Shown here one piece after another: positions 2,482 to 22,237 of a stretch of 26,907 bases of DNA. Made by a program: the position numbers and the translations under genes. Origin of the DNA: Candidatus Flexifilum affinis (GTDB taxonomy: Bacteria; Chloroflexota; Anaerolineae; Aggregatilineales; Phototrophicaceae); the NCBI GenBank assembly GCA_016713325.1, contig JADJPJ010000005.1, forward strand, positions 1 to 26,907, given 5' to 3'. Position 1 is the stretch's first letter; each line of letters opens with the position of its first letter. Under the pieces are notes generated by a model. The model ran no database searches, had not been told where the DNA came from, and saw only the letters and a program-made list of their open reading frames with translations.

Positions 2482-5008
2482 TCAGTGTGGTCCCAGTGTC
2501 GCGGTTAAGAAGACGGGCAGGGTGAAGAAGAAGGTGGTTCCCTGTCCTGCCGTCGATTCGATCCAGATCCTGCCATTGTAGAACTCGACGATACGCTTGA
2601 CGATGGTCAGACCAACGCCGGTGCTGCCCAACGGGTCCTGCGGCGCCAGCGTGTGGAAGAGCTGGAATATGCGCTCGAAATGGTGCGGCGCGATGCCTGG
2701 GCCGTTGTCCTGGACCGCGAACCGCCACAGTTCTCCGTCGTTGGTGCAGCCGATGTGGATTTCGCCATCAGGCTTGTCCATGAATTTGATCGCATTGTCG
2801 ATCAGGTTCTGGAAGATCTGGCGGATGCGGGTGGGCTCGATCAGCAGTGTCGGCAGGCCGTCCTCGATGGTGACACGGATGCGTTCTGCGGGCACGATGT
2901 CCTGCACGATCTGCCGCACCAGAACCCCCACATTGATGGGAATGCTGGTTTCCAGTTCCCGGCCGATGCGCGAGTACTCCAGCACTCCGTTGATCATATC
3001 CTGCATCCGCCGCACGCGCCCGCGCAGAAGCTGGATGAGCTCTCTGCCCTCGGCATCGAACTGGTCCTCGTAGCCCGATCCCAGCCATTCGGCCACCGAA
3101 CTCACACCGCGCAGCGGCGCTTTCAGGTCGTGCGAGATGACGTAGGCAAAATCGCTCAGCTGCTGGTTGGCCTGTTGGAGCTGGGCCAGTAGTCTCTGGC
3201 GCTCTTCTTCCGCTTCCTTGCGCGCAGTGACATCCCGAATGACGCTCAGGATCTGTGTGATCTGTCCGTCTGTCCCTCGCTCATAGACCATCTTGCGCGT
3301 GTTTAGCCACACATAGCCGCCCGCTCTATGCTTCCAGCGGTATTCTGACTCGACGATGGCATCATCACTCAGGCGCGCATACTTGGTGCGCAGCAGTCGC
3401 TCCCGCGCGTAGTCTTCGGGGTGAATCAGAACCTCGGCAAAGTTCGGCTTCATCACCCGCAGTTCATCGCCGGTATAGCCGATGAGATGGTCGACATCGC
3501 GGTTTGAATAGGTGAGCTCTTTCTCGGACAGATCGTGAATCTGAAGGACATCCGGGGAGCAGTTGAGCGATCCGCTCGACCAGTTTCTGGCTGCGTTCCA
3601 GCGCAAGTTCGGCCTCTTTGCGGGCCGTGATGTCGTTGGCGATGCCGTTCCAGATCGTTGTGCCATCGCTCAGGCGCTTGGGCGTGGATTCCGCGCGTGC
3701 CCACCGCATTTCGCCCTGAACAGAGAGCCGTCCTTCCCAGTTCAGGGGGGTCAGATCGCGAGCGGAGTCGAGCTGCTCCGCCATCATGGTGATCGCGTCA
3801 TCGGGTTCGAGAAAGCTGAAGATAATGGCCGGATCGGACGTAATCACTTCTGGCTCTAGCTGAAGATAGGCGCAGATCCTTGGGCTGACATAATCGAGCC
3901 GGAACTGTCCGTCAGTGGTCTGGCGGAGCTGATAGAGGTAGGCAGGGATGTTCTCGACCAGCGTATCGTAACGCTGGTTGCTTTCGATCAGCGCGGCCTG
4001 GTTTGCTTTGTCGGCCGTGATGTCGCGCAGCACCAGGACGCGGCCGGTGGCATAGCCGTTCTCCGTGCGCAGCGGCGAGAATCGTGCGTCGAAGACGCGA
4101 GTCGCCAGCGCCAGCTCAAATCGCGAGTCCGTTCCCTGGGGCAGTTCGCCGGCATACCCCCCATGTGCCAGAAAGTCTGCCAGCCGTTTGTACAGGAGCG
4201 CCGATGTCGGGACTCCGAGCAGACTCCGTCCCGCCTCGTTCCACTGGATCAGTTTGTCGCTGTCGTCGAGCACAAATACCGCATCCTGCAGGCTGGTGAA
4301 CACCGTATGGTGCGCGGCGGTCAGCACGTTGAACAGACTGCTGCGCTGCATGCCCCAGGCATATAGCACCAGACTGAGCGTGATCCCGATGGAGGTGACG
4401 TTCAGCGGCAAGGAGTCGCCCAGAAGCACCGAGACGGTTGTAAAGAGTGCGCCGATGACGTTGCCGCCCAGGATCCAGAACAGCGGACTGCGCTTCGTCG
4501 TCAGACTTGCGGCCAGGAAATAGTACGTCACGCAGAGGACAACGTATGAGAGCGAGCCGGTCGCATAGAACCAGGGACCGTAATGCATGTGGGGAACGGT
4601 GAGAAAGCCCTTCTTCGCCATGGACCACTCGGTCCAGTGCATCGGAATGACCTGTTCGCCCCACAGGACGATCAGGGTTGCCAGGGGCAGAATCAGCACA
4701 ATGGACGCGAGACGCGGGTCGCGGGAACGATAGGCCCGCTGATACTGGAGGGCGAACAAGAGCAGCAGGGGCACCGCGAAAGCCAGTGCGGACTGGCGGA
4801 GGCGTTCCCAGAAAAATGCCTCGTCAGGGGAGGAACTGAGCGTGAGCTGAAAGTCCGCGATGACCGCCAGCGTGAGGACCGCGATGTGCAGAAAGAAGAC
4901 TCGTCCGCCGGGAGATCTGAAGAACCGCAGTGTGTACACCGCCAGCATCGACCCGAAGGTCATGCCCAGGATAAGAAATACGAGATAACCAAGTGCCAGT
5001 GTCCCCAT
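2482..5008 (-). CDS. 7TM-sensor histidine kinase with three PAS domains (one frameshift)
   Basis: This is a membrane sensor kinase of about 841 residues after correction. Residues 1-225 hold about seven hydrophobic helices, matching the HisKA_7TM N-terminal sensor. Three PAS domains follow at about 228-335, 345-465 and 480-600; PAS2 and PAS3 end in PAC-type sequences (IANDITARKEAE, IRDVTARKEAE). HisKA has His626 in YVISHDLKAPL. HATPase_c has LIDNAIKF, DNGPGIAPHHFERIF and GSTGVGLTIVKRI. The frame changes at the G run at 3554-3557: removing one base joins AQLLP to DVLQIHDL. The total length of 2527 nt is 842 codons plus one base, so one extra base explains the break. The start at 5008 has an AAGG Shine-Dalgarno 6 nt upstream. 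The REC-HisKA gene follows 32 bp later. The signal sensed cannot be told from sequence. Confidence 0.9.
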
Positions 5009-7430: not shown

Positions 7431-8334
7431 AGCCGTTCCGTTTCGTGCATCAGGTCGAGCGCCAGATCGATAGCCTCGTCGATGCTGCGCGCCTGGTAAG
7501 AGTCGATAGGCTGGATCGGCTGGCGGACGTTCGGCGTGGCATACAGCCCCTGCCGGTAGACCAGACGCTTGAAGCAGTGGATCGACAGGTCGAGATGCTG
7601 GTTGGAGACGGCCAGCACCGGCAGGAGACGGCGGAACATCGTCGTCGCACCGGCCCGGTCGCCCGCGTCGTACAGCCGGAGGATCTGCCGGTAGACGGGA
7701 TGCAGCGAGGTCGGCATGAGTGCATGCACGCCCCGGTCGAGCGCTTCGATCATCTGCATGATCGCCCAACCGCCGGCGACGTGCAGCTTTCCGCCGGTCG
7801 CCTCCAGCACCTGGGTGTATTTGACTCCGGCCGGCGCCACCTCGATCTTGATCGAGCGGAAGGCCTCGAAACGCTCGAACAGGTCGAGGATCAGCGGCAG
7901 GGGCAGCCCATAGCCCGACGCATCCCAGTCCTGGAGCATGAGCAGGTCGGGCCAAGCGCGGCCAGCGCCTCGACCTGACGGCTATAGTCGGCGTCGTCCA
8001 CGTAGGGGATCGAGGCCAGCACCGCTTCGCAGCCGAGTTCGAGCAGAACGCGGGCGGCAGCGAGCCGGTCTTCCGGGGTGTTGGCCGTCGCCCCGCCGAT
8101 GATCGGGATGCGCCCGCGCGTCACGTCCAGCACCGTCCGCACGATCAGCCGGCGCTCGTCCTGCGTCAGCTTGTAGACCTCGGCGGCCAGCGCCGGGACC
8201 AGGAAGCCGGCCGCGCCCCACTGGATGGCATACTCGACGTGCGCCGCCAAACCATCGACGTCGATGCGGTCGTCGGCGGTGAACGGCGTGTTGAGGACGG
8301 TGATGATGCCGCGGAGGGTTTGTGTCGGGTCCAA
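7427..8334 (-). CDS. Divergent DHDPS/NAL-family protein (one frameshift)
   Basis: This is a class I aldolase-family (dihydrodipicolinate synthase/N-acetylneuraminate lyase superfamily) TIM barrel of about 302 residues. The N-terminal half (LRGIITVLNTPF, GAAGFLVPALAAEVYKL, GGATANTPEDRL) is read in one frame and the C-terminal half (LMLQDWDASGYG, SIKIEVAPAG, HVAGGWA) in another. One base missing near 7949-7952 (GGCCCGACC) joins them as LGPDLLMLQDWD. The Schiff-base Lys is kept (SIKIE), but the usual catalytic Tyr of the LYNVP motif is Gln (LQDWD), so this is not a standard DapA. The start is taken as TTG at 8334, 6 nt after AAAAGG; the upstream permease stops at 8346. It overlaps the next gene by 4 bp. 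The substrate is unknown. Confidence 0.85.
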
Positions 8335-8345
8335 GGTCAGCCTTT

Positions 8346-9185
8346 TCAGCCCTTCAGGCCGGTGCGCGAAATGCCTTCGATGAAGTATCGCTGCAAAACG
8401 ACGAAGAAGACAATCGGTGGTAGGGCGGCGAAGACCGCGCCGGCCATCGACTGTCCGATCGACTGCTGCCCCTGAACCATCCCGGCGCGCAGGCTGAGAA
8501 ACTGTGCGATGCCGACGGGCAGGGTCCGCACGTCGTCGCTGCGTGTGACGATCAGCGGCCAGAAGAAGCTGTTCCATGTCGAGAGGAAGGTGAGGATAGC
8601 CACCGCGGTCAGCGCCGGGCGCGCCAGCGGCAGCACCACCGACCACCAGATGCGCAGCGCGCTCGCGCCGTCCACACGCGCCGCGTCCTCCAGTTCCGAA
8701 GGGATGCTGAGGAAGAACTGGCGCATCAGGAAGACGCCCGTGACGTTGGCCCCAACCGGAATGATCAGCGCCCAGTAGGTGTCGGTCAGGCCCATCCGCG
8801 CCAGCAGGATGAACAGCGGCACGACCGTCACTTGAATCGGCACGAACAGCATCGACAGGATGATCATGAACAGGACGTTCCGCCCGCGGAATTCCATGCG
8901 TGCGAAGGCGTAGCCCGCCAGCGAGTCCAGCAGCAGCACCAGCGCTGTCGCCGTCGTCGAGACGAACAGACTGTTGAACAGCCAGCGCAGCATGGGCCGC
9001 TCGGCCAGGATGGCGGTGAAATGCTCGAAGGTGAACTGGCGTGGAATCCAGTGGATGTCGGTGGTGACAATTTCCGTCTCAGGGCGCAGCGAGGTGGTGA
9101 GCATCCAGGCGAGCGGCGCCACGGCCAGGATGACGATGACGACCAGAAAGGCGTACCAGATCAGGCGTGAGATCGGTCGTGACAT
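8346..9185 (-). CDS. Carbohydrate ABC transporter permease, MalG/UgpE-like (CUT1)
   Basis: The 279-residue inner-membrane permease is intact. It has about six transmembrane helices, the first at residues 8-30. The EAA loop ([21 protein letters not shown], about 190-210) contacts the transporter ATPase. The short N-terminus, FTLEHF-like sequence after helix 1 and C-terminal [13 protein letters not shown] are characteristic of MalG-type subunits. It starts 2 nt after the MalF-type gene stops, so the two are translated together. It would form the membrane channel with that partner and receive sugar from the binding protein at 10291-11581. No ATPase gene is present; CUT1 systems often use a shared MsmX/UgpC-type ATPase encoded elsewhere. 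The sugar cannot be named. Confidence 0.93.
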
Positions 9186-9187
9186 GG

Positions 9188-10111
9188 CTATTCCACTCCC
9201 TGCAAGCCGCGTCTGTAGGCGCGAATCTGGAAGAAGGCGATGAACACCAGCATGATGAATAGGATCACCGTCACCGCCGAGCCATAGCCGAAACGCTGGA
9301 ACTGGAACGAGGTGGTGTAGATGTACTGCACCAGCGTCAGCGTGGCCGTGCCCGGCCCGCCGCTTGTCATCACGTAGACCTGATCGAACACCTGGAACGA
9401 ATTGATCAGGGTGAGCATCAGCACCAGGAAGGTGGTCGGGGCCAGCAGCGGCAGGGTGACGAAGCGGAAGATGCCAAACGTGTTGGCGCCGTCGATGCGC
9501 GCCGCTTCGTACAATTCACCCGGAATATCCTGCAAGCCGGCCAGGAACAGCACCATGTTGTAGCCGACCGTCCACCAGACCGTCGTCAGGATGATGCCCC
9601 ACATGGCCGTACGTTCGCTGACCAGCCAGGTCGATGGGCTCAGGCCGAACATCTGGAGATAGACGTTCATCAGGCCGAAGTCTTTGTCGAGGATCCACGT
9701 CCAGACCACGCCCACGACCGTGGACATGACGACGTAGGGCATGAAGACCGCTACCCGCCCGAGCGTGCGGCCGCGCATGGGGCGGTTGAGGAACAGCGCC
9801 AGGGCCAGGCTCAGGACGACCAGGACGGGCACCGTCACGGCGGTGAAGCCGATCGTGTTGCGGATGGCTTCGCCCAGCCGGGGTCGCGCGCCATCGCCTG
9901 GAAATTGGCCAGGCCGATCCACTCCGGGCGTCCCGACCGCCTGCCAGTTGGTGAACGCGATGCCGAGACCGGCCAGCGACGGACCCAATCGGAACAGGAT
10001 GAAGAGCACCAGGTAGGGCAGGATGAACAGATACGCCGTCGGAAACGTGCGTCGTCTGTTCGCCTGTGCCAGGTCCCCGGATCGGACTGCGGTTCGAGGC
10101 AGTATGCTCAT
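9188..10111 (-). CDS. Carbohydrate ABC transporter permease, MalF/UgpA-like (CUT1)
   Basis: This is the 307-residue partner permease. An N-terminal basic segment precedes helix 1 ([18 protein letters not shown]), about six helices follow, and the EAA loop [21 protein letters not shown] is near residues 212-233. The short stretch at about 9870-9940 reads [19 protein letters not shown], which does not fit the family. The alternative frame reads [17 protein letters not shown], exactly what UgpA/MalF-type permeases have after the first helix. A one-base insertion (near 9936) and a compensating one-base loss (near 9880) would explain it. It follows the binding-protein gene after a 179-bp gap holding a hairpin repeat and precedes the MalG gene by 2 nt. 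Confidence 0.92.
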
Positions 10112-10181
10112 CGCGAGTTCTCAGTCTCGGCAGGGTGCGGCCGGGCGATCCTGCGTGACGGCTGGACCTTTTGGGCGGACC

Positions 10182-10236
10182 GTAGGGGCGACCCAGCGGG
10201 TCGCCCAGTGTCGGGCGAGGCAGCGCCCCGCCCCTA
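10182..10236. repeat. Double-hairpin intergenic repeat (BIME-like), copy 2, tags outward
   Basis: GTAGGGGCGACCC...GGGTCGCCC is followed by GGGCGAGGC...GCCCCGCCCCTAC. The units match those at 6550 and 22374, but here the GTAGGGG/CCCCTAC tags form the outer ends. It sits between the binding-protein gene and the permease genes and could affect message stability or partial termination. Confidence 0.65.
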
Positions 10237-10290
10237 CGATCGCAGTCCCTAAGGATTAACCATCTCCAGGACCATCCCGGCGCACTGCTT

Positions 10291-11581
10291 CTAGGACGGA
10301 ATCAGAAGGATAGCGCTGATCTCGTTGCAGGCCGTCTCGACCGCCGAGCGCACGTCCGCGTTCTCCAGGATGATGCGCTGCCCCATGACCATCATCGGGG
10401 TCGGCGCGTTGGAGGCGAAGATCGGCGAGAATTGCGGGATGTTCGGCAGCAGGAGCTGATTCGGCAGCATGTCGACGAACGGCTGACGACCCTTCAGCGC
10501 CGCGAAGTCGTCCGAGGCGATGATGTCGTTGCGGATCGGCAGTTGGCCGGACGCCAGCCAGCCGAACGAATTCTGTGCCAGCCACTCGATGAAGGCGATG
10601 GCCTCATCCCGCTTCTCCGGGTCGGCGAAGGTCGGCAGGGTGAAGTTGTGGCCGCTGCCCCAGGTCGCCGGCTGGTCGAAGATCGTCGGGTAGGCAGCCG
10701 TCGACCAGTTGAAACCGCTCTCGGCTTCGGCCGCTTCCATCGCCGGGATCTGCCACGGACCGTCGATCAGCATGGCTGTGCGGCCGGTCAGGAAGTCGCG
10801 GGCATAGTCGGTCTGGCCCTGCGGTGCGGCGTAGTGTACGTAGACCAGGTCTTGCAGCCACTCCCAGGCCTGCGTCGCCTTGTCGATATCCATCACGCAC
10901 TCCATGCCGTCTTCAGAGAGGAGCTGCCCGCCGAGCTGGCCGTACAGCGCGTACCACTGGTAGAAGGCGTGGTGGTTGGTCTGCATGTTGACGGCGTACT
11001 GCACGATGTTGGCCGGGTCGAAATTGGCGTCGCCGGGGTGATTGCCGTTGGCATCCTTGGTCAGCAGACGAGCGGCTTCCAGGAATTCTTCGGCATTGGT
11101 CGGCGGCCCAGAGAGGCCGGCCTCTTCGAACAGATCGACATTGTAGAACAGGCCGTGGACGCCCAGGTCAAACGGGAAGGCGTACATCTGGCCCTGGTAG
11201 AACTGGAGATCCCACGCCTTCTGCACGTAGGCATCCTGCTGGAAGACCTCGGACGCGGCGATGATCTCGTCGATCGGCTCGATCAGCCCCAGGTTGATGA
11301 ACATGGCGGTTTCCTGCGGATGCATCGCCATGATGTCGGGCGATTCGCCGGCGCTGGCGGCAGCAATGAAGGTCGAACAGCGGCGACCACGCCTGAACGG
11401 TCAGGTTGACATTCACATTCGGGTTTTCGGCGCTGTACTGGTCCACCAACTGCTGCATGATGGCGCCATCGGGGCCGGTCCAACCGCCCCAGAACTCCAG
11501 CGTGACTTCGTCCTGGGCCGAAACGCTGCTGAAGGCGGCGGCGACCAGGATCAGAACAAGGAAAAGCGGCAGTTTACGCAT
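10291..11581 (-). CDS. Extracellular sugar-binding protein of the CUT1 ABC transporter (one frameshift)
   Basis: This is a family 1 extracellular solute-binding protein of about 429 residues that captures the sugar outside the membrane and delivers it to the permeases. A basic N-terminus and hydrophobic segment (about residues 4-21) ending SSVSAQDE form a Sec signal peptide; no lipobox Cys is seen. The mature start [14 protein letters not shown] is typical. The frame changes near 11372 (TTCGACCTTC), joining VQAWSPLFD to [20 protein letters not shown]. Later features such as [30 protein letters not shown] and [11 protein letters not shown] are family-typical. The start at 11581 is favoured by GAGGTG 7 nt upstream over the in-frame ATG five codons earlier. 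It heads the transporter gene run, downstream of the aldolase gene with a 108-bp gap. Confidence 0.92.
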
Positions 11582-13553: not shown

Positions 13554-14338
13554 TCAACCTTTCATCCCACGGCGCACCTGCGAAGGACGGGCCGGCACAT
13601 AACCCATGCGCCGCGAGATCTCCCCGGCGACCCTGGTCACCTCGGCGCCTAGTTCGAACATGCGGTTCGCGACAATCTGAGAGTCCCGGCCGGAAATGCT
13701 GCATGCCCCGATGGGCGTGCCATGCTGATCGAAGATCGGCGCGCCGATGCAGTACGTCTCCAGTTCATGCTCCTGCCGGTCGAGGGCGTAGCCGCGCATT
13801 CGCGTGACCTCCAGGTCCTCTTTCAGCATCTTCAGCGTCGTTTGGGTGAACCCTGTATGCGCGTGCAGCGCTCCGTCGGGTACATCCGGTCGATTTCCTC
13901 CGGCGGCAGATAGGCGATGATGGCCTTGCCCACCGACGTGCAGTAGAGCGGGGCGTGATCTCCCACGGCGGTGCGGGCCATCAGCCGCTGCGACGACTCG
14001 ATCGCGTAGATGTACAGCACGGCGTCGCCGTCGCGCACGGTCAGATAGACGGATTCGCGACTGGCGTCGGCCAGCGCCCGCAGCAGGGGCGCCGCGCGGT
14101 CGCGCAGTTCGACGTTGACCTGGACGTTCTGCGTGAGCGCGATGATCTTCTTGCCCAGGGCATAGGAGCCGTCGTCGGTCTGCTCGATGAAGTTCTGCTG
14201 TGCAAGGGTGGCGATGAGGTGGTGAACGGTGCTCTTGGGGATGCCGAGACGCCGGCTGATTTCGGATAGTGGCAGGCGCGGTTCCGCAGTGGTGAACAAC
14301 TGGAGGATGTCGAGCGCCTTCGTCACAGAACTAATCAT
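13554..14338 (-). CDS. IclR-family transcriptional regulator (one frameshift)
   Basis: This regulator of about 261 residues has an N-terminal winged helix ([33 protein letters not shown]) and a C-terminal effector domain. The effector domain includes [37 protein letters not shown] and, in another frame, [20 protein letters not shown]. IclR regulators typically sense small acids in sugar or aromatic breakdown and often repress neighbouring genes. The frame changes near 13858, joining TRIQ to [13 protein letters not shown] choose ATG at 14338 over the in-frame ATG at 14377 because a perfect palindrome resembling an IclR operator occupies 14356-14372, and family members usually begin just before the VxKALxIL helix. 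It is the first gene of the catabolic run and likely controls it. Confidence 0.9.
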
Positions 14339-14355
14339 GCCAAAAACCCGCATTG

Positions 14356-14372
14356 GTTTCATATTATGAAAC
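14356..14372. promoter_or_regulatory. Candidate IclR operator (perfect palindrome)
   Basis: GTTTCATA-T-TATGAAAC is a perfect 8+1+8 palindrome starting 18 bp upstream of the chosen IclR start and just downstream of a promoter-like sequence. Its GTTTC/GAAAC half-sites resemble known IclR-family operators. It probably mediates autoregulation and control of the downstream operon; no second copy is seen before the binding-protein gene. Confidence 0.6.
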
Positions 14373-14391
14373 AGCATTTCGTCTATCTGAA

Positions 14392-17108: not shown

Positions 17109-19217
17109 TCAATACACGAACGTCGCCAGCGTCGAGATCAGCATCACGCCGGCAAACAGCGACCAGTACAGCACCTTCGGGATCAGGTTGTTCTGATAGC
17201 GGACGATGAACCAGTTCGGCCGTCGGGCGACGAGGAAGACGTCGGCGGCGACGGCGATGATCGCCACATAGAGCAGCAGATAGAAATGCTCCATATAGGT
17301 GATGCCGACGGCGGCGATCTGGTCGCGCAGCGCGTTGTGGATGACCGCCACCACGAAGAAGAGGGCGGCGGCATAGCTGAGCGCGGTGGGGATCTCCTCG
17401 CGCTTCCCCGGCTCATGTCCGCTGATCAGGTAGGCGAAGGTCAGCGCCGCCGCCACCAGACCTGGCAGCAGATAGGCGATGAACGACCCGGAGCGTGATG
17501 CGCTGCGCCTGAATGCTGAAGCGCAGTTCCGGCAGGGCGCCGGCGGCCCTCGCGCATGCCGAAGTCGACGCGGCGCGGCGGCTCGGTATAGCTGAAGTGG
17601 CTGTTGAGGAGCGTCCAGTTGTTGATGCCGGCCTGTGAGTCGACGCCGGGCAGGGCGCGCGGGGTGAGGATTTCATAGCCGTCGAGATCGGGTGTGAGCA
17701 GCACCGGCGAGGTCATGTCGGCCGGGGCCATCCGGACGACGATGGTGCGCTGGTCGAACGGGAAGCGGGAAGTATCGTAGGTCTGGCGCAGCGTGACGCC
17801 GATGGCCCAGAGGATCACCTCGGCGTCGTCCACGATCTCGCGGCGCACCTCCTCGATCGTGGCCTCCTCGCCGATGCGCTGGGGCAGCGAGAAGCCGTGC
17901 GTCACGTTGGACTCCAGCGGATAGCGCTGCCATACCAGCCCATTGACCGTGACTGACGTGGGATCGGGGAAGTCCAGCGCCTGAACCAGCAGGCCGGTGG
18001 GGATCTGCACGACCGGCGTGCCAACCGCGCCGCTGGACCCCGCCGGCGGCTCGACGCCCTGGAGGTAGCGGTCGAGCTGGGACTGGCTGGTGATCAGGAC
18101 GCCCTCGTCGTCTTCCAACTGGCCGGTGAGCGCCCAGGCCAGCCCGATCAGAATCACGCACAGGGCGGTGAAGACCAGAGTGACGGCCCAGAAATTGGTG
18201 AAGCGGTAGCGGTCGAGGTGAAAGATGGTGGTGGACACCAGAAAGATGGCGGCCGCCCCGGCCAGCAGGATGTTCATCTGATCGCGGACGGTCTGCGCTT
18301 CGTCCGGCAGGAACTGCGCGATGTTCAGCACGATGCCCACCGCCCAGCCGGTTGAGCCGATCGGTTCGAAGAAGTACCAGGTGGTCTCGCCGGTGATCGG
18401 GTCGCGGGTCTCGACAAAGCGGGCCGGCCCCGTCGAGCGCCTCCTGCGCCGCCGTGTTCAGCGCCTGATCGCCGCCGGTAATGTCGAAGATAGTGCGGTT
18501 GACCACGAATTCGCGCACGGGGTGGGCCAGGAAAGTGCCCTGGCCGGAGATGACGAAGCCGTAGCCGGTCTCGCCGAGTTCCAGCGCGCGGATCAGGTCG
18601 CTGACGTCCTGGAGGGTGTAGTCGATGCTGACGATACCGGCGGGCGGCGCGCCTGGCTCCGCGTTGACGGGTGGGAAGGGGATGCCGTACTCGACCAGGA
18701 TCTTCTGTGCGCCAGTGGCGAAGAACGGCTCATGCCAATGGGCGCCCTGCTTGACGGTATCGACGTACCAGTCGGTGAAGATTCCTGCGGCCGCGTCCGG
18801 CTCCTGCGTGTAGTCATAGGTCGCGCCGACCAGGCTGGCAAAGCTGCCATCCGGCTCCTGGTAGACGTAGGTCTGGAACAGGCGCTCGTCCGGGGCGTAG
18901 GCGTAGGGCTCGAAGGTGATGGCGACTCCGTCCAGGTCTGGACGTTCGCCGACCAGATCGAACATGCGCCGTTCGATGTCGGTGTAGGCGAGGGTTCCGC
19001 CGGCCAGTTCGCCGATCAGCCCCTCGGCAATCGCCATCACGTCGCCGAACGCGCTGCTGATCGACTGGGCGGCGGCCACGGCCTGCGACTGGGCGGCAGC
19101 GAAGGCTTCGTCTTGCAGTCGGGCGCGATGGCTCAGATATTCATAGGCGGCGTAGGCGGTCACCACAATGGCGACCGCGGACAGCACTACCAGCAGCAAT
19201 GCGGATCTGCGAAGCAT
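17109..19217 (-). CDS. dCache sensor fused to a pentameric ligand-gated ion channel (pro-loop receptor), three frameshifts
   Basis: The reconstructed protein has 701 residues. Residues 5-28 are a membrane helix. About 30-305 form an extracytoplasmic dCache_1-type sensor (WYVDTVKQGAHWHEPFF, GIVSIDYTLQDVSDLI, LGETGYGFVISGQGTFLAHP). Two helices follow at 312-331 and 341-364. Residues 366-575 look like a pLGIC ligand-binding beta-sandwich with the pro-loop YDTSRFPFDQRTIVVRM (FPFD at 485-488). Four helices follow at about 577-598 (M1, with conserved LLPG), 606-628 (M2), 639-662 (M3) and 680-700 (M4). LRFSIQAQRITLRSFIAYLLP before M1 parallels the GLIC pre-M1 segment, and Glu607-608 begins M2. Three one-base insertions (near 18424, 17550 and 17489) explain the frame changes; length minus 3 is exactly 702 codons. 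It lies 123 bp downstream of a sensor kinase gene. The channel assignment rests on motif recall, not a search. Confidence 0.8.
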
Positions 19218-19340: not shown

Positions 19341-20832
19341 TCAGCGCCGGCGGGAGGCCGCCGCGTCGGCGCGGATGGGAAACTGGATCACGAAGCGACT
19401 CCCGATGCCGGGCGTGCTCTCCACCGAGATGCCGCCGCCCATCGACTCGATCAGGTGGCGCGCGATGGCCAGGCCCAGACCGGCATGGTCGCGGGCGTTG
19501 CGCGACGAGTCGGCGCGGTAGAACTGCTCGAAGATGTGCGGCAGATCGGCGGCCGCGATTCCCTGACCGGTGTCTTCGACGGCGATCAGGTATGCGTTAC
19601 CCATCTGGCGCGTCTGAATGCTCACCCGGCCGCCAGGGTCGGTGTATTCGAGCGCGTTCTCGATGATGGCGGAAAGGGCGCGGTCCAGTTCGAAGCGGTC
19701 GGCCGGCGCATCGACGCCGCGATCTTCCAACTGCACGTCGAGCGCAATGCGCTTCTGGCGAAACCCTTCGGACAGCCGACTCGCCGCCGCCGCGACAACC
19801 TCGCTCAGATTGGTATCCTCCAGCGTCATGGCGGGCGGGTCTTTCAGGCGGGCGACCGTCAGGAGCTTGGTCGCCAGCAGCCGCAGATGGTCGAGCTGCT
19901 GCTGCATGGTGCCCAGATAGCCTCACGGTTTTCGGACGTGCCGTTCTTCTCCATCAGATAGCGCGTGGTGTTGAGGATGGCCAGCGGTGTGCGCAAATCG
20001 TGGGACAGGTTCATCACCATCTCGCGCAGACGCTCGTCCTTTTCCCGCTGCATCTGCAATTCCAGATCGCGCAGGCGCAGATCCTGGACTTCGGTGACGT
20101 TGCGAAAGATGCCGCGCAGGGCAACCGGCCGTGCGTCTTCGAAGCGGCAGTTGATGCTGCCCTCCAGGTGCACCGGCGACCCATCTCTGGCGATGAAGAC
20201 TGTTTCGATGAGCTGGCCGCCGCTGTGCTGGCCTTCGATCATCTCGCGCATCAGTTGCAGGTGCGCCAGGCTGTAATCGGGGTGGATGATCTCTGGCAGA
20301 CGCAGGCTGGCGAGATCGCCGTCCTCGTATTTCAGCGTCTCGCGCCAGGCACGGTTGACGAACAGCAAGCGTCCTTCGAGGTCGATGCTGTGAATCAGGT
20401 CGCTGGCATTGTCCAGAAAGTCCTGGAGCCGTTCCCTGCTCTCGTGGATGGTCTTCATGGCCCGAGTCCGCTCTGCCGAATAGCGAATGCTGCGCTCCAG
20501 CAGCGCAGCGTTGAATTCGCCCTTGGCCAGATAATCCGAGGCGCCTTCTTGGATCGCCTCGACATCCATGCGGCGGTCGCCGCGGCCACTGATAATGATG
20601 GCGATCGCATCCGGATGGAGACGGCGGATAACCCTCAGAAGGCGCAGCCCGTTGTCGTCAGGATGGCCCAGTTGGAGATCGATCAGATAGATATCGTGCG
20701 CCGCCGCCTCGATAACCCGCAGCGCATCTCCATAGGACTGCGCCCACTGATCGCACGCGCTGTCTCGGTGTTTTCCGTCAGCATGCTGCGGATGAGGACG
20801 AAATCCCCCGCCTCATCCTCGATGACCAGCAC
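19341..20832 (-). CDS. Sensor histidine kinase: REC-PAS-HisKA-HATPase (two frameshifts)
   Basis: This soluble kinase has about 496 residues. An N-terminal receiver domain (VLVIEDEAGDF, phosphoacceptor Asp in YLIDLQLG, IIISGRGDRR, conserved Lys in DYLAKGEF) is followed by a PAS domain (FLDNASDLIHSIDLEGRLLFVNRAW, IFRNVTEVQDL). Then come HisKA (MNLSHDLRTPLAIL) and HATPase_c (IIENALEYTDPGG, DTGQGIAAADLPHIFEQFY, HAGLGLAIARHL). Frame changes lie near 20755 in the receiver and near 19922, where one missing C would give EAYLGTMQQQLDHLR. No ATG suits the start; GTG at 20832 begins VLVIEDE and is my best guess, but the frame is open upstream and the start is uncertain. It has the same receiver-first plan as the kinase at 1292-2449. 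The Cache-channel gene follows 123 bp downstream on the same strand. Confidence 0.87.
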
Positions 20833-21398: not shown

Positions 21399-21860
21399 TC
21401 ACGCATCACCGACGGAGATGGCCAGCATGCGAATGTCGGCCTGGGCCAGCACCAGCGAGGCGTCGGGTCTTTCGGCGAAGTGAATCAGGTGGGCGGGGCA
21501 TCCACAGTCCGAGGCGCCGAAGCGCGGCGCGACCACGATGGCCCCTGGCTGCGCCATCAGCGCGACGGCGGCGGCGTGCTCGTAGACAGCATCGCTGGCG
21601 ACGATCCACAGCTCCCGGCAGTGGGCCGCCTGCCGCAGATAGTCGACGTGCCAGTGCGGCTTGCCGACCGGGGTGAGGTGATGCTTCAGCCGACCACGCA
21701 GACCGCCAGGGCCAAAGGCGCTGCCGACGTAGGCGTACCATCCGGCCGGAAAGTCGATGATCCCCAGCCTGCCGACGGTCAGACGCGATGCCGCCGGCAG
21801 TTCAAGGAGCAGGACGTAGGTGCCTCTGACGGCGGGGAGTGTGTTCAGCGAAAGTTCCAT
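21399..21860 (-). CDS. DUF123 family protein (GIY-YIG nuclease-like)
   Basis: The protein of about 153 residues matches DUF123, a family related to GIY-YIG/Uri endonucleases. It has RGTYVLLLELPA (the GTY in place of GIY), IDFPAGWYAYVGSAFGPGGL (a YVGSA in place of YIG), RLKHHL, KPHWHVDYL and a C-terminal DCGCPAHLIHF. The archaeal and bacterial members are often fused to or near endonuclease III, but no such neighbour is present here. I prefer the ATG at 21860. A TTG at 21902 would overlap the cupin stop codon (TTGA) and add 14 residues, so coupling to the cupin gene is possible. Its substrate is unknown. Confidence 0.82.
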   Translation of the reverse strand: MELSLNTLPAVRGTYVLLLELPAASRLTVGRLGIIDFPAGWYAYVGSAFGPGGLRGRLKHHLTPVGKPHWHVDYLRQAAHCRELWIVASDAVYEHAAAVALMAQPGAIVVAPRFGASDCGCPAHLIHFAERPDASLVLAQADIRMLAISVGDA

Positions 21861-21898
21861 GGCCCGGTCCGCTTCTGTTCGTTGGTTGAGCCGAAAAA

Positions 21899-22237
21899 TC
21901 AAGAGCCGAGAAATTCCTGCCGAATGGGGTTGAAGGTGTCGATCACCCGGGCCGACTCGCTGAGGAGCTGGATGCAGTGCGGCACATCGGACGGCACCGC
22001 GATCATGTCGCCGGGGCCGAGTTCGTAAGGCGCATCACCCAGGAAGAAGATCACCCTGCCGCTGACGATGTAGGAGATCTGCTCGTGGACGTGATGGTGT
22101 GGCAGGTCTGGGGCCGCCTGCGGCCCGTTGCTGATGTCGAGCACAACCATCATCAGATGATCGATGTGCGCCAGATAGCGCTCTTTGTTCTCGCCCGCCG
22201 CCTGGCGCGGCGTCTGACTGGCCAATACAGGGTTCAT
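21899..22237 (-). CDS. Cupin-domain protein
   Basis: The 112-residue single-domain cupin is intact. Metal-ligand motif 1 reads PHHHVHEQISYIVSGRVIFFLG and motif 2 PGDMIAVPSDVPHCIQ, the usual G(X)5HXH(X)3-4E and GDXXXXPXXXXH patterns with His and Glu kept. Such small cupins bind a metal and act as isomerases, dioxygenases or sensors of small molecules; the reaction cannot be told. It lies immediately upstream of the DUF123 gene on the same strand. Confidence 0.88.
   Translation of the reverse strand: MNPVLASQTPRQAAGENKERYLAHIDHLMMVVLDISNGPQAAPDLPHHHVHEQISYIVSGRVIFFLGDAPYELGPGDMIAVPSDVPHCIQLLSESARVIDTFNPIRQEFLGS

Follow-up and report, generated by a model that had tools for sequence, protein, structure and literature searches.

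Can one and the same bacterial protein read a chemical signal outside the cell and answer it with an ion current? The question is raised by a gene on the minus strand of a 26,907-nucleotide stretch of Candidatus Flexifilum affinis DNA (assembly GCA_016713325.1, contig JADJPJ010000005.1; the whole stretch is hereafter called the window). Translation of 19217..17109 gives one protein spread over three frames, which an original prediction, made from the letters alone, took for a Cache sensor fused to a pentameric ligand-gated ion channel (pLGIC). We consider it likely that this Cache-pLGIC is a chemoreceptor, in which a molecule bound by the Cache domain opens a probably cation-permeable pentameric pore lined by the M2 helix. 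What supports this proposal, and which alternatives have to be weighed against it?

One protein in three frames

The first frame (19217 to ~18423) holds the first transmembrane helix (TM1) and most of the Cache domain; the second (~18418 to 17546) carries the end of Cache, TM2, TM3, and the beta-sandwich with its FPFD loop; the third supplies a short stretch ahead of M1 (17526-17488); and the first frame resumes at 17486-17112 with M1-M4. By translation, the frame changes lie where three frame errors had been predicted, near 18424, 17550, and 17489. Could such a patchwork arise by chance? Relatives of about 700 residues read through uninterrupted, and the three larger window pieces, 56-77% identical to the relatives at loci L001 and L002, differ from them mainly at third codon positions, an excess that marks selected coding sequence; together these observations exclude a chance reading.

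Whether the window copy still works is a separate matter. Three breaks within 2.1 kb would suit a dead gene, as would the copy in genome G205, which is likewise matched in two frames. We nonetheless think it unlikely that the breaks are genuine, given that the adjoining kinase gene is also frame-split, as in an error-prone assembly, and that third codon positions are the most divergent in all three pieces, so that any death of the gene must be recent.

Relatives and distribution

A protein search with the C-terminal part of the window protein returned 61 matches, the best of them 64% identical with the queried part 100% covered. Most are ~670-740 residues long and 39-64% identical to the query, and the last three fall to 30-34%. 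Intact homologues with the same domain order, for which the original prediction had proposed a search, do exist. In their sources they are labelled Anaerolineae, Anaerolineaceae, Chloroflexota, or Candidatus Chloroploca; a later search added P0087, a partial protein whose source name is Burkholderiales. Scanning of genomes yielded 20 loci, every one titled as a Chloroflexota group. When 301 Chloroflexota genomes were compared with the family alignment, 63 matched, mostly over Cache only, and at least eight (G205 among them) matched near full length, a lower bound, as scoring stopped at three candidates in most genomes. Residue counts below refer to alignment A1, which comprises 55 of the 61 matches (the short or partial P0003, P0024, P0026, P0036, P0042, and P0061 were excluded), with positions numbered as in P0004, an intact relative. 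A further set, A4, combines 18 loci and 36 proteins.

Three side observations belong here. P0059 (933 residues) carries ~200 extra N-terminal residues with several membrane helices ahead of its Cache-pLGIC; the stretch looks MscS-like by eye, and Pfam gave no match to such a family. P0121 (383 residues, on an 84 kb contig) is a pLGIC-like protein on its own; its start resembles a signal peptide, and its match to Neur_chan_memb is weak (0.0011). At L001, a 701-codon open frame (8013-10118, minus strand) runs antisense to the entire 697-codon gene and is probably a by-product of base composition.

The channel half

The structure model is that of P0004, in place of the window's broken copy. Homologues, profile-profile comparison, and this model agree on the predicted beta-sandwich and four-helix bundle, the fold that defines the pLGIC superfamily, and both hhalign and fold comparison match it to pLGICs, with 13-14% identity to GLIC across the structural match. 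Descent in common with pLGICs is thereby shown at the level of sequence, and a common fold is predicted. The predicted signature (FPFD, the segment before M1, and the LLPG proline) is likewise conserved. In the [F/Y]PxD loop between beta6 and beta7, the aromatic residue, the proline, and the aspartate are each present in 55/55 relatives, and this proline is absolutely conserved in pLGICs according to Table 1 of Jaiteh 2016. The pre-M1 arginine (55/55) and the beta-9 tryptophan of the sandwich core (54/55) align with their GLIC counterparts, and the M1 proline is found in 53 of the 55, compared with 77% of the superfamily. M2, predicted to begin with glutamate, starts with Glu or Asp at position 602 in 48/55 relatives, which points to cations.

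The seven membrane helices foreseen for each subunit are borne out by family-average hydropathy, which shows seven peaks at the threshold applied, with TM2, TM3, and the four-helix bundle also seen in the P0004 model; all seven hydrophobic places are present in 54/55 members. The N terminus is predicted to lie inside and the C terminus outside. Predicted cytoplasmic stretches contain more K+R than D+E (in the M3-M4 stretch, a mean of 3.6 versus 0.8). The exception is an acidic M1-M2 loop (1.6 K+R versus 3.5 D+E), as in cation channels. At L016-L018 (Anaerolineales HSG25 and HSG24), an SBP_bac_5 domain follows M4 in the same chain (E 4.7e-56 to 6.5e-55); since this domain works outside the membrane, its place fits an external C terminus. 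A Peripla_BP_4 gene lies directly upstream at these loci, with SBP_bac_1 fused in two of the three, and tail and upstream genes together fit a solute-sensing role. Three sensor types are thus seen around one channel in these two genomes.

The Cache half

The window Cache domain matched MCP-like_PDC_1 above the Pfam cut-off (9.8e-7) and dCache_1 below it (2.3e-7). Homologues, profile comparison, and the predicted structure all indicate the dCache-type extracytoplasmic sensor originally proposed: a double PAS-like fold between two membrane helices. In dCache sensor kinases and chemoreceptors, membrane helices flank the dCache domain. The proteins at hand share this TM-dCache-TM unit with 3lib, PctA, and TlpQ, and they differ in that the output of the latter is an intracellular kinase or chemotaxis domain rather than a channel. 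Cache and channel half stand in one chain in 71 of the 80 proteins that strongly match the family's channel half, contrary to a picture in which the halves are always separate genes.

Does Cache gate the pore at all? It could be an anchor or localiser, with the channel answering its own ligand or pH, like GLIC. We regard this as improbable. The TM2-TM3 hairpin does stand between Cache and sandwich, and nine of the 80 proteins have no detectable Cache (all are <=457 residues, seven on contigs of <=3.3 kb); P0061 may be a genuine Cache-less form with a single helix before the sandwich. Against it, the great majority retain Cache, the aromatics of its pocket and Asp198 are conserved in 51-54/55 relatives, and related channels bear another binding domain before the sandwich.

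What might Cache bind? Where PctA has R126, the motif arginine of amino-acid sensors (dCache_1AA), 51/55 relatives have Thr, two residues ahead of the WY pair; the PctA alignment begins at that pair, and the position of R126 is taken from the paper. Of the dCache_1AM amine motif listed for PctD in the amine-Cache preprint (R103, D133, W155, F188, Y189, M215, S217, and D235), the relatives seem to retain just the aromatic pair and the last Asp.

How might sensor and channel be coupled?

In the mechanism that we favor, each subunit would run from TM1 through an extracytoplasmic dCache, TM2, TM3, and an extracytoplasmic beta-sandwich to M1-M4, and, as in known pLGICs, five subunits would surround a pore with M2 as its lining. 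Cache would sit on its own TM1-TM2 anchor in the style of a sensor kinase, with the third helix returning outside to the sandwich. A small molecule would be bound by Cache, possibly with another at the beta-sandwich interface, and binding would shift the TM2-TM3 hairpin and the sandwich, the movement passing via the hairpin or by contact outside the membrane. The FPxD loop, the pre-M1 Arg, and the M1 Pro would then transmit the change from the sandwich to M1 and M2, and the pore would open, probably to cations, with the current as the output of the receptor.

Several observations weigh against this model. Among the 25 of 42 matching Pfam families listed for the 55 relatives there is no Neur_chan family, and hmmsearch of A1 against the PDB (E up to 1) found no pLGIC. 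Is the C-terminal half, then, an unrelated protein that happens to have a beta-sandwich and four helices? Plain hidden Markov model searches of Pfam and PDB sequences would allow it, but the fold and profile results contradict it, and we find the idea scarcely credible. The suggested Pfam check thus upheld the Cache part but not the channel families, which came into view through profile-profile and fold comparison; the four window pieces, too, matched no channel family in Pfam. Neur_chan_LBD had no match in the 301 Chloroflexota genomes, yet the control matched nowhere, so absence is not demonstrated.

M2 raises further difficulties. The M2-M3 loop proline, a common but not defining feature that Jaiteh 2016 reports in 88% of pLGICs, occurs in 0/55 relatives, and no basic residue is seen at the expected 0' place. 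The 9' residue is Leu613 or Phe614, both being accepted there, and the register is not fixed. A divergent subgroup (L016 and L017) has no M1 proline. Phe614, Phe615, Val616, His621, and Arg625 are invariant in M2 (55/55); His621 and Arg625 are unusual in its outer part and counsel caution. Could the protein be a pLGIC-derived receptor that does not conduct, its fold kept for ligand sensing and assembly while the Cache signal goes elsewhere? Bulky and charged invariant residues, together with the proline and the basic residue missing around M2, speak for this, but 48-55 of the 55 relatives retain each element of the gating chain (FPxD loop, pre-M1 Arg, and M1 Pro) and the acidic beginning of M2, as a working channel would, and among the 25 of 42 families listed for the 55 members there is neither a kinase nor a chemotaxis output domain fused to them. 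We judge this alternative rather unlikely. On the sensor side, dCache domains are usually dimeric, a poor fit with five-fold symmetry, and the replacement of the dCache_1AA arginine by threonine means that no ligand can be named.

Known systems and novelty

The kind of fusion seen here has been known since 2004, which resolves part of the original uncertainty as to whether it had been described. Tasneem et al. 2004 (PMC549065), in the part used here, report prokaryotic channels fused to MCP-N plus Cache in Methanosarcina, Cytophaga, and Microbulbifer, as well as PBP-I-channel fusions in alpha-proteobacteria, and propose that such proteins are chemoreceptors. Those Cache channels, like ours, place Cache N-terminal to the pLGIC sandwich and four helices, but their extra domains are described as lying between signal peptide and ligand-binding domain, with no mention of intervening helices in that part of the paper. 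The TM2-TM3 hairpin thus sets the window family apart by description, and Chloroflexota are not among the groups listed in the same part. Our third protein search, aimed at Methanosarcina-type Cache channels, returned none named Methanosarcina, Cytophaga, or Microbulbifer.

Other relatives help to place the family. GLIC (Gloeobacter) and ELIC share the C-terminal fold of ~300 residues, the FPxD loop, the pre-M1 Arg, the M1 Pro, and the short M3-M4 loop, but have no sensor and three helices fewer. DeCLIC, which is among the Foldseek matches, is also a bacterial pLGIC with an added extracellular N-terminal domain, of another kind, as predicted: two jelly-roll lobes with calcium sites and no Cache in the part of PMC12664993 drawn on. 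Among fusions of the PBP-I-pLGIC kind, a Peripla_BP_6-pLGIC, also from Chloroflexota (e.g., L033 3657-6179), joins a solute-binding, venus-flytrap sensor of the leucine-binding-protein type to the channel without a membrane hairpin (by eye). It has 23 relatives, of which 20 plus L033 form alignment A2, and Pfam finds Neur_chan in them weakly or not at all. In the joint alignment A3 (10 loci and 6 members of this family), identity of their channel halves to the first row amounts to 17-21%.

In the open-licence literature, no paper combined the term "pentameric ligand-gated ion channel" with "Cache domain" (Tasneem 2004 is worded otherwise), and no Cache-pLGIC study after 2004 was found among the papers listed, which is no proof that the family in Chloroflexota has never been published; the main text of Jaiteh 2016 contains no "cache," "periplasmic," or "chloroflex." As far as can be told, three things are new: this family in Chloroflexota, the TM2-TM3 hairpin within it, and the SBP_bac_5 domain after M4. 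Do they amount to an unrecognised pLGIC branch, mostly of Chloroflexota, in which a TM-dCache-TM unit drives the channel via a hairpin, some lineages add SBP_bac_5 after M4, and seven-helix subunits stack two to three extracellular ligand modules? We see this broader proposal as evenly poised.

Gene neighborhood

Partial checks found no conserved operon, and neighbors vary by locus; one or two genes each, not always adjacent, were scanned at L001, L005, L007, L009, L011, L012, and L014-L018, and more at L001 and L002. The sole shared neighbor seen is a DUF123 gene upstream on the same strand, at 21402-21902 (minus) in the window, beyond the kinase gene, and at ~7480-7917 (plus) in L001, where it adjoins; it counts against a complete lack of shared context. 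So do two kinase genes that lie downstream on the opposite strand at L002, 32% identical to the window kinase piece over the match; no kinase gene adjoins among the L001 neighbors scanned. Periplasmic-binding-protein genes lie directly upstream only at L016-L018, and TRAP transporter genes lie downstream at L014.

Table 1. Features of the Cache-pLGIC gene, its window neighbors, and loci with an SBP_bac_5 tail
Feature	Coordinates	Strand	Basis or remark
TM1, N-terminal helix before Cache	19143..19199	-	translation; family hydropathy peak; hydrophobic in 54/55 members
dCache sensor, first-frame part	18423..19112	-	
dCache end, second-frame part	18311..18418	-	translation; family profile match to 3lib extends across it
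TM2, exit from Cache	18215..18277	-	hydropathy; helix 304-332 in P0004 model
TM3, back outside ahead of channel extracellular domain	18128..18193	-	hydropathy; P0004 model helix 338-362
pLGIC extracellular beta-sandwich	17546..18004	-	IPTG start, conserved Trp, FPFD, beta 9 NNW
FPFD loop within beta-sandwich	17753-17764	-	translation
Pre-M1 strand with conserved Arg, third frame	17488..17526	-	Arg in 55/55 relatives
M1 with LLPG proline	17424..17486	-	Pro in 53/55 relatives
M2, presumed pore-lining, acidic start	17322..17402	-	acidic in 48/55 at P0004 position 602
M3	17220..17297	-	hydropathy and translation
M4, C terminus predicted outside	17112..17174	-	hydropathy; SBP_bac_5 after M4 in L016-L018
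PAS-HisKA-HATPase kinase gene, frame-split	19341-20569	-	directly upstream of Cache-pLGIC
HisKA_7TM N-terminal region and PAS, probably sensor kinase	3464-5008	-	
ABC transporter genes (two permeases, SBP_bac_1) and IclR regulator	8346-11331 and 13832-14377	-	downstream of Cache-pLGIC
Cache-pLGIC-SBP_bac_5 loci	L016 7839-12032; L017 7866-11810; L018 7827-12026		

Significance

To our knowledge, the signals sensed by most bacterial pLGICs have yet to be identified. Cache is a well-studied class of small-molecule receptor and so offers a handle on pLGIC input, through a ligand screen on Cache alone. The family also illustrates that deep pLGIC branches can escape Pfam-based surveys. If the proposal is true, it would show how a usually dimeric sensor unit can be connected to a channel of five-fold symmetry, and it would broaden the range of inputs of the superfamily that includes the nicotinic and GABA receptors. 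In total, the evidence suggests a one-protein device that converts an outside chemical signal into ion flow.
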